DNA of 40,495 nt from a virus, in the IMG/VR virus record IMGVR_UViG_3300033149_006354, positions 1 through 40,495 of that record; one strand, written 5' to 3'. This document shows, piece after piece, positions 31,967-34,391 of the stretch (the first letter of the stretch is position 1; each line of letters opens with the position of its first letter). The notes under the pieces were generated by a model. The model did no database searches, was not told the DNA's origin, and was given only the letters and a program-made list of their open reading frames with translations. A program made the translations under genes and the position numbers.

Positions 31967-31993
31967 TCTCTCGCCTCCTTTCTCTGCCGGGTT

Positions 31994-32061
31994 GCCTCAT
32001 CAGTAGACAGGTTCCCGTCCTGTCCAGACTCCCGAGAGCTTATGCCCCCGGGAGTTTCGGC
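31994..32061 (-). ncRNA. Hammerhead ribozyme, type II (copy 1)
   Basis: On the minus strand all core elements are present. The 3' strand of stem II GCC (32061-32059) runs into GAAA (32058-32055). Stem III is 12 bp (including G-U pairs) with an AUAA loop, arms 32055-32044 and 32039-32028. Then come the cleavage triplet GUC (32029-32027) and stem I UGGACAGG/CCUGUCUA (32026-32019 with 32011-32004) with a 7-nt loop, CUGAUGA (32003-31997) and GGC (31996-31994) closing stem II. A15.1-U16.1 and C17 are as in the consensus. Stem II is open to flanking RNA, hence type II. Cleavage falls after 32027. Confidence 0.88.
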
Positions 32062-32097
32062 TTTTTAGATCATGCTGCCATAGCAATCACCTCTCTC

Positions 32098-32280
32098 TTA
32101 CCAAGTAAGTTGGCGGAGCCCTTTTACCCTGATCCACATCTCGTTGATTTCTGGTGTCGTAGACCAGGGATCAACATTGAGGAGATGTTGTAAAGCTTTC
32201 TGTGGAGTGTCAAACGTACCAAGCGACACCCCTGAACCTCCTACATCATTTATTATTCCTTCTACATAAAATATTGTCAT
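32098..32280 (-). CDS. Small hypothetical protein
   Basis: 60 residues with GGGGGGAGGAG before the ATG; overlaps the upstream gene by 35 nt in another frame. Sequence MTIFYVEGIINDVGGSGVSL then GTFDTPQKALQHLLNV suggests a small alpha/beta domain. It ends 37 nt before the stem II end of the first hammerhead ribozyme. Not recognised. Confidence 0.5.
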   Translation of the reverse strand: MTIFYVEGIINDVGGSGVSLGTFDTPQKALQHLLNVDPWSTTPEINEMWIRVKGLRQLTW

Positions 32281-32659
32281 GATCTCCTCCCCCCTTTCTA
32301 ATCGGCTTAAAGGTTATCCGTCCCCAAGGATCGCTGAAGGTTTTAATATGGTCTGATAACTCCTTCTTGAGATCCTTATTCACAGCAGTCATGTTTGGTC
32401 TCATATATTTCGGCACCTGCTCCAGCCTGTTATTGTTCCAGAGATAGTAGAAGAGATCTCCAGCATCAAGCTCTGTTCTGGTATAGGTGCCAAAGTCTGC
32501 TACAAACCTATGACCTTGAAGAACTCCCACCTCCTTTATTATGGCCATTTTCTTGAGTTCGTCTTTGAGCTGCCTTAGTTCTTCTTGTAACTCCTTAATC
32601 ATGAGATCGAGCTCAGCAGCTCGATCAACCTTTTGTTTGTAACCATTACCCTTAGCCAT
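32246..32659 (-). CDS. Hypothetical protein with N-terminal coiled coil
   Basis: 137 residues. Residues about 10-40 form a charged coiled coil (AELDLMIKELQEELRQLKDE). The remainder (FVADFGTYTRTELDAGDLFY then YLWNNNRLEQVPKYMRPN) looks globular. AAAGGAGG precedes the ATG. The layout resembles small DNA-mimic or Gam-like phage proteins only superficially. Function unknown. Confidence 0.5.
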   Translation of the reverse strand: MAKGNGYKQKVDRAAELDLMIKELQEELRQLKDELKKMAIIKEVGVLQGHRFVADFGTYTRTELDAGDLFYYLWNNNRLEQVPKYMRPNMTAVNKDLKKELSDHIKTFSDPWGRITFKPIRKGGGDHDNILCRRNNK

Positions 32660-32673
32660 GTTAGTCCTCCTTT

Positions 32674-33309
32674 CTAACTAATTTCAGTTAACCTTATGTT
32701 ATCCTTAAGGGCCACTTCTATCATATCCAAGAGTTCTTTCACAGAAGAGAATGTCCCGCCCCAAAACTCACATTGGGCCTCATGCTTCCATAGTTGGATG
32801 GCGTTACTCATAAGACTTGTAGAGTTGTGCCTGGGAGGTGACTGAAGCAGTCCTTCTTTCTTCTCAGCTATGAGCTCCTTCAGTGCTTGTTTGAGAGCCT
32901 CGAGCCAGTTGCTGTTCTCATTACAACAATAACGTATGACCTCATTAATTTCAGATGCTGCTTTATAGCTCTCCTGTTTCTTGACCAGTGATTCGGATAA
33001 CCAATCCAATGTATTGACTGGATCAGATTGGCACCTACTAACGAACTCTTCTTTAGCTTCCTCATAGGCTTTCTTCATCTTGTCGGGCCAGGACAAGATC
33101 TTCTGTTCCCAGAACTCAATGGAACTAACGAGATCTCTCCGTTCCAACTCTATTGAGAGGTTGACCAGCTCCGGATGATGAGACTTCGTTAAATGCTTCT
33201 CAACCGCATTCTTGTGTTTATAGGCTTTGCCGCAGAGGAGGCAGAAGAATCCTTCCTCCCCTTCCGTTGTGTTAGCCTCTATTGCCTTCTTGAAAAACTT
33301 GTCTATCAT
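32674..33309 (-). CDS. C2H2-type zinc-finger protein downstream of a hammerhead ribozyme
   Basis: 211 residues from MIDKFFKKAIEANTTEGEEG, with AAGGAGG 8 nt before the ATG. A longer frame beginning inside the ribozyme core ATG is not credible. FFCLLCGKAYKHKNAVEKHL then TKSHH (about 21-45) is a C2H2 finger, rare outside eukaryotes but known in some phage proteins. The rest is helical (YKAASEINEVIRYCCNENSN, LEALKQALKELIAEK). The hammerhead at 33341-33419 would leave a 5' leader of about 72 nt. It stops in TAG. DNA binding is inferred. Confidence 0.55.
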   Translation of the reverse strand: MIDKFFKKAIEANTTEGEEGFFCLLCGKAYKHKNAVEKHLTKSHHPELVNLSIELERRDLVSSIEFWEQKILSWPDKMKKAYEEAKEEFVSRCQSDPVNTLDWLSESLVKKQESYKAASEINEVIRYCCNENSNWLEALKQALKELIAEKKEGLLQSPPRHNSTSLMSNAIQLWKHEAQCEFWGGTFSSVKELLDMIEVALKDNIRLTEIS

Positions 33310-33340
33310 CTCTTTGTCCTCCTTTATTAGAATTAACAAT

Positions 33341-33419
33341 CTAGGCTGCCTCATCAGTGGCTAGGCGCCTACCCTAACTAGACGTCCGGGCAGTATAGCC
33401 CGGGCGTTTCGGCTTCTAG
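33341..33419 (-). ncRNA. Hammerhead ribozyme, type II (copy 2)
   Basis: Minus-strand order matches copy 1. Stem II 3' strand GCC (33413-33411) is followed by GAAA (33410-33407) and stem III with arms 33407-33398 and 33391-33382 (one C/A mismatch, 6-nt loop). Then GUC (33383-33381), stem I UAGUUAGG/CCUAGCCA (33380-33373 with 33365-33358, one A/C mismatch and a G-U pair, 7-nt loop), CUGAUGA (33357-33351) and GGC (33350-33348). Stem II can extend by CUAG/CUAG (33419-33416 with 33344-33341) after a small internal loop. Sequence outside the core differs from copy 1, so base-pairing is conserved independently. Confidence 0.85.
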
Positions 33420-33790: not shown

Positions 33791-34391
33791 TTCAATCCTC
33801 CTTTCTTTAGGTTAAAGTCAACCCCCTCACTACTGCCCACTGTCTACCACCGATGGGCAGTGTCAAGGAATTGACCATCTAGCCCTTAGGTCTCACCGGC
33901 TGTCTCGGAACCTTCTGCAACGCCAGCTCCTGCCCAACCTCTGGAAGATCCTAGCCTTAAACTTGTCTCACCTCCCTCCTGCTACACCTTCCATCCGGCT
34001 TCCCTGTCCGGCTCCCTTTCCTAATTTTCAATGAGCTAATTAAATTTTGTCCTGGATTATATTATATAAAGTGAGAAAAATAAAATTGCATAAAACCCAA
34101 ATATAGGTGATCAGAGCAGTTTATGAGGCAAAAAGGAAGGAAAAGCTATTATTTTTATAGCTTTTCTTAGATTTTCTTTGATTTTTAGTATGAAAGGGCT
34201 TAACTATTTGAAATGATTGAAAAATTTGACAGGCAGCTAACTATTTGAAATTTTTACGAAAAACAAAAAAATTGAAAAAATTTAAAAATTTTTAGGCTAG
34301 GATACAAAAAAATTCACTCTGGCACCCTAAACTATTGGAATCATTAAATTTATCTCCTAAAAATTCTCCTGGCTATAACCTACTGAAATCA
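33791..34391 (-). other. 601-bp non-coding control region with long leader
   Basis: No plausible gene on either strand. The part 34041-34391 is very AT-rich, with repeats, a hairpin and TATAAT-like strings (minus-strand TTTATATAATATAATCC near 34079-34063). The part 33791-34040 is GC-richer and transcribed as a leader. It contains an 8-bp inverted repeat, ACTGCCCA/TGGGCAGT (33824-33831 with 33845-33852), and repeated CCGGC strings near 34000. It separates the tail/HTH genes from the early operon. Likely jobs are early promoter, operator and perhaps a second origin. Confidence 0.5.
34141..34165 (-). terminator. A/T hairpin terminator candidate
   Basis: Perfect 9-bp inverted repeat AAAAGCTAT/ATAGCTTTT (34141-34149 with 34157-34165), 7-nt loop. 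On the minus strand it is followed by CCTTCCTTTTT. It could end transcripts of the tail and HTH genes before the early promoter. The low GC content makes it a weak terminator. Confidence 0.4.

Follow-up and report, generated by a model that had tools for sequence, protein, structure and literature searches.

Two type II hammerhead ribozymes at gene boundaries of a phage operon and their probable role in dividing its transcript

What could a self-cleaving RNA be doing between the genes of a phage operon? The question is raised by a viral DNA of 40,495 nucleotides (IMG/VR record IMGVR_UViG_3300033149_006354, positions 1 to 40,495, which is referred to here as the window), in which an earlier note had read two type II hammerhead ribozymes in one operon. 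The role of prokaryotic hammerheads was called an open question in a 2017 review (PMC6155905). Clustered type II hammerheads are known to flank prophage genes, with tandem sets cleaving in vitro and in E. coli, and Perreault et al. (2011) proposed that they cut long phage transcripts into gene-length mRNAs (PMC3088659). Neither this type of ribozyme nor its occurrence in phage clusters is new, the clusters having been published in 2011; what is added here is the survey of gene-boundary placement. In the window, the two ribozymes, named A and B, probably punctuate a minus-strand phage operon by self-cleavage. The grounds for this reading are the identity of the ribozymes, their fold, their pseudoknots, the covariation within the family and the placement at gene boundaries.

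When both strands of the whole window were scanned with 4227 Rfam families, Hammerhead_II was the sole match at E ≤ 1 (33414-33340, minus strand, 37.7 bits, E 2.8e-4). The elements of ribozyme A, placed by direct reading and by the Rfam alignment, are the following.

33342..33413, minus strand: ribozyme A, a type II hammerhead, spanning stem II through the pseudoknot tail (RF02276, 37.7 bits)
33411..33413, minus strand: stem II 5' strand GCC, with its partner GGC at 33350-33348 (direct reading and Rfam alignment)
33410-33407, minus strand: GAAA core, right after the stem II 5' strand (direct reading and Rfam alignment)
33382..33407, minus strand: stem III hairpin, followed by C17 at 33381 (Rfam alignment; fold of the lone hairpin z -4.0)
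33381/33380, minus strand: predicted cleavage site (Rfam alignment)
33358..33380, minus strand: stem I hairpin (Rfam alignment)
33357-33351, minus strand: CUGAUGA core, after stem I (Rfam alignment)
33367..33371 with 33346-33342, minus strand: pseudoknot between loop I (UAGGC) and the tail (GCCUA) (direct reading; own-tail versus swapped-tail test in the family)

Read along the minus strand, the order is AGCC-GAAAC-stem III-GUC/stem I-CUGAUGA-GGC-tail. Stem I has 7 bp (a U-A pair, an A.C mismatch and then six further pairs) and stem III has 9 bp with one interruption. The sequence, strand, coordinates and predicted cleavage position all agree with those proposed earlier, and with the Rfam match, core, topology and pseudoknot the identification of A as a genuine type II hammerhead is confirmed at the level of sequence, with cleavage as its predicted activity.

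One element of the earlier description probably does not hold. It had given stem II an extra CUAG/CUAG extension, and CUAG at 33419-33416 can indeed pair with CUAG at 33344-33341; positions 33344-33342 are, however, also used by the pseudoknot (33346-33342 with UAGGC 33371-33367), so that the two pairings are mutually exclusive. The extension competes with a pairing that is typical of the family and was rejected as a native element; it is probably absent from the active fold. Type II hammerheads need the loop I/tail pseudoknot for fast cleavage, and the addition of one base pair to stem II lowered activity in published assays (PMC3088659).

The second copy was recovered by a search with RF02276 as the single family (32062-31986, minus strand), and it lies in the same operon at about the distance of 1.3 kb that had been claimed, the two predicted cleavage sites being 1354 nt apart.

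31988..32061, minus strand: type II hammerhead ribozyme B (RF02276, 33.0 bits, E 1.2e-6; fold z -4.4)
32027/32026, minus strand: predicted cleavage site of B
32017-32014 with 31991-31988, minus strand: pseudoknot of B, CGGG with CCCG

Both copies have an intact core (CUGAUGA, GAAA with A15.1-U16.1, and C17) and the same topology, in which loops close stems I and III while stem II is open. They share this fold with unrelated helix sequences, so what is preserved between them is the pairing, as the note had stated; this extends to the pseudoknot, which has 5 bp in A and 4 bp in B with differing sequences (UAGGC/GCCUA vs CGGG/CCCG). The stems of B are long and clean, with 8 bp in stem I and 12 bp in stem III. 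In A, nearest-neighbour folding without pseudoknots gives -28.4 kcal/mol for an alternative structure and -24.7 kcal/mol for the ribozyme fold, whose pseudoknot is not counted; the alternative, with its broken stem I, is favoured by 3.7 kcal/mol. This is compatible with activity, since the model omits the pseudoknot and stems III and I emerge first during transcription, although A may be a less efficient cutter than B. The whole record holds no third type II or type III hammerhead according to the Rfam scan and the hammerhead searches.

Could these be chance or decayed motifs without activity? The gathering score of RF02276 is 37 bits, which A passes at 37.7 and B fails at 33.0; large sequence collections can yield hammerhead motifs by chance, and 4 of the 18 consensus hammerheads assayed in the 2011 study were inactive (PMC3088659). 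Against this stand two intact copies on the coding strand of one operon, both 5' of a Shine-Dalgarno (SD) sequence and start codon and each with a pseudoknot of its own. When the core was held fixed, the variable segments randomised and the results scored for equal stems plus pseudoknot, the observed pairing was matched by 1 of 20,000 shuffles for A and by 0 of 20,000 for B, which bears out the earlier argument against chance. As the 0.54 Mb of control loci (helicase and polymerase relatives) also contain no ribozyme, an inactive chance or decayed motif is a highly improbable explanation.

The family leads to the same conclusion. Among the matches listed, 157 viral-contig sequences were chosen by core and stem II alone; stems I and III both reach at least 4 bp in 80% of them, compared with 4.6% in shuffles, and all Watson-Crick types occur at the stem positions outside the fixed core. 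For the pseudoknot, a test with swapped tails was adopted because the version with shuffled variable regions was confounded by loop size: in 46% of the matches listed, loop I and its own tail form at least 4 Watson-Crick pairs, compared with 9% when tails are swapped, and none of 500 permutations reaches the observed own-tail pairing. The covariance check that the note had called for thus finds strong covariation in the helices across unrelated phage copies. Searches for closer relatives were less productive. The ribozyme is absent from the recovered helicase and polymerase relatives (≤54% identical, mostly fragments), and searches found no relatives of two of the genes between the ribozymes. 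With many of the recovered relatives being fragments, the covariation is one seen across unrelated phages and not at the orthologous position.

The genes in this part of the window all lie on the minus strand, with one ribozyme before a block of three and the other after it.

32674..33309, minus strand: gene after ribozyme A, 211 aa (SD AAGGAGG 33324-33318, ATG 33309)
32246..32659, minus strand: middle gene of the block that cleavage is predicted to release, 137 aa, with only weak matches
32098..32280, minus strand: last gene of that block, 60 aa
31769..31966, minus strand: gene after ribozyme B, 65 aa (SD AAGGAGG 31980-31974, ATG 31966)
32027..33380, minus strand: predicted tricistronic RNA of 1354 nt that both cleavages would free (from the two cleavage sites)

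The mechanically called start of the 211-aa gene, ATG 33354, was rejected in favour of ATG 33309, because the former falls within the CUGAUGA core of the ribozyme whereas the latter has a full SD. The encoded protein has a weak C2H2-like zinc finger (Pfam zf-C2H2_2, E 0.0017, under its cut-off), and searches found no close relative of it. The distance from stem II to the start codon is 38 nt for A and 27 nt for B, and the nearest upstream ORF end (≥40 aa) lies 80 nt before A and 36 nt before B.

Some further features of this region are recorded here in their own right. Before ribozyme B (32063-32100, minus strand), a good SD (AGAGGTGA) is followed by a tiny frame, ATG GCA GCA TGA, ending 8 nt before the ribozyme; it might be what is left of a lost gene, or else a mini-ORF whose role is to provide the stop. 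Upstream of the ribozyme operon, the non-coding stretch 33800-34040 (minus strand) folds better than its shuffles (z -3.6). Its long hairpin lies around GACACUGCCC...GGGCAGU; the stretch has no Rfam match and is a candidate structured leader or small RNA. The A/T-rich, non-coding stretch 34100-34340 separates the tail genes from the early genes. In it TAACTATTTGAAAT occurs twice without mismatch, the copies being 37 nt apart, and on both strands a hairpin at 34138-34168 runs into T-rich sequence; the stretch is a possible terminator, promoter or origin region.

Whether the placement of A and B follows a general pattern can be judged from a survey of two separately selected and structure-filtered core-pattern sets, which together hold at least 397 ribozymes in at least 233 viral loci (first set, window included: at least 191 copies in at least 116 loci; second set: at least 206 copies in at least 117 loci), with genes called simply as ORFs with an SD. 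Among the matches listed, the upstream stop codon ends between -2 and +4 nt from stem II in 67% of the first set and 60% of the second, where the null is about 1.3%; the value for the first set is still 69% when near-duplicates are removed, and it is 48% in a genome-contig set that is richer in chance matches. The commonest arrangement, with 67 copies among the matches listed, is a UAG that overlaps stem II by its G (-1). ORF ends number 268 in the 60 nt before the ribozyme and 10 inside it among the matches listed (48/28 and 2/38 in shifted-box controls), so that in phage copies translation nearly always finishes before the ribozyme starts. On the other side, an SD-start follows within 40 nt in 69% of the first set listed and at 10-40 nt in 69% of the second (null 8% for each). 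In the literature searched, which may be incomplete, no published statement of the stop-codon rule was found.

The ribozymes are also arranged relative to one another. All copies lie on the same strand in 71 of the 72 multi-ribozyme loci listed, with up to nine copies in a locus and a median spacing between neighbours of 483 nt, or about one small gene, among the matches listed. The phage contigs L009, L055, L013, L105, L306, L335 and L400 carry 5 to 9 consecutive type II hammerheads on one strand, mostly one small gene apart, and in L055 and L013 the order within the array is stop-ribozyme-SD-gene-stop-ribozyme. The genes that follow ribozymes do not point to a common function: of 20 proteins compared with PHROG, 12 have no match, and the other, varied matches include one ATPase family twice as well as an anti-restriction protein and a replication terminator protein. 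As seen in gene layout, this geometry supports mRNA punctuation between genes, and it is what the transcript-cutting idea of Perreault et al. (2011) predicts (PMC3088659). The A/B pair is fairly typical among phage ribozymes. Each copy has an SD-start shortly 3' on the same strand; neither has the majority stop placement (-2 to +4 nt), and these distant stops count against the punctuation reading at this locus, as do the score of B below the gathering threshold, the alternative fold of A and the absence of the ribozyme from the helicase and polymerase relatives, many of them fragments.

The closeness of stop codon and stem II invites another explanation, namely a translation-gated switch, in which a ribosome terminating at the adjacent stop would cover GCC-GAAAC so that cleavage occurs only when upstream translation pauses, and cutting would report on translation or on host shut-off. 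Such a switch would need a stop in contact with stem II or overlapping it, and 60-67% of the phage copies listed have one, most often as UAG at -1. Compact intergenic packing predicts much the same, however; ordinary gene pairs also show some of it (13% at -2 to +4, measured from stop to SD), and A and B themselves do not abut a stop. For these reasons the gated switch is considered unlikely. A wider and tentative proposal, which we think somewhat less likely to be right than wrong, is that phage type II hammerheads form a dedicated punctuation code, in which stop, ribozyme and RBS are fused into one unit and repeated up to nine times per operon, giving single-gene mRNAs capped by hairpins at both ends, with cleavage possibly gated by terminating ribosomes.

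For the window, the punctuation reading would work as follows. Each ribozyme would fold during transcription and cut the polycistronic RNA just 5' of the SD that serves the following gene. Cleavage would leave the upstream piece with stem III as its terminal hairpin and a 2',3'-cyclic phosphate, and the downstream piece with a 5'-OH and the stem I hairpin, which the pseudoknot would hold in place; cleavage of both A and B would release an mRNA of 1354 nt with three genes. Because helix II is open in type II hammerheads, a hairpin would stand at both new ends: the topology closes stem III on the upstream product and stem I on the downstream one, while types I and III would leave a closed hairpin on only one product. 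By this structural argument the terminal hairpins could hinder exonucleases and the decay that depends on the 5' end, and would uncouple each segment, in stability and in translation, from its neighbours.

The same two ends could in principle serve a different purpose. The 1354-nt RNA would carry half of A at its 5' end and half of B at its 3' end, which might re-form a composite hammerhead and ligate to give a circular mRNA. Hammerheads are capable of ligation, and by direct reading A and B could exchange their stem II strands (compatible GCC/GGC). The folding model, on the other hand, predicts that the 5' end of the A product adopts the alternative fold after cleavage and loses stem I, so that the reaction would be hard to reverse, and spliced or circular products were sought by Perreault et al. 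and not detected (PMC3088659). A circle maker is therefore very unlikely. Punctuation between genes, by contrast, is made directly testable by the stop-ribozyme-SD geometry of at least 397 copies, as it predicts exact 5'-OH ends, single-gene mRNAs in the arrays and dependence on the upstream stop.

Known systems resemble the proposed arrangement in different respects. In RiboJ-like insulators, a hammerhead cleaves just 5' of the RBS and leaves a defined, structured mRNA 5' end, as is proposed here, but these are engineered satellite-RNA hammerheads placed after promoters and not between genes. The clustered prophage hammerheads (PMC3088659) have the core, the topology and the loop I/tail pseudoknot in common with A and B, as well as several same-strand copies that flank short blocks of small uncharacterised phage genes, whereas the helix sequences and genes of the window are different and its two copies surround a three-gene block. 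HHphage of the haloviruses HF1 and HF2 (PMC3088659) likewise belongs to an early phage operon and precedes a start codon closely, by 13 nt compared with the 38 and 27 nt from stem II here, and a transcript 5' end has been mapped at its cleavage site; it differs in its variant core and its archaeal host.
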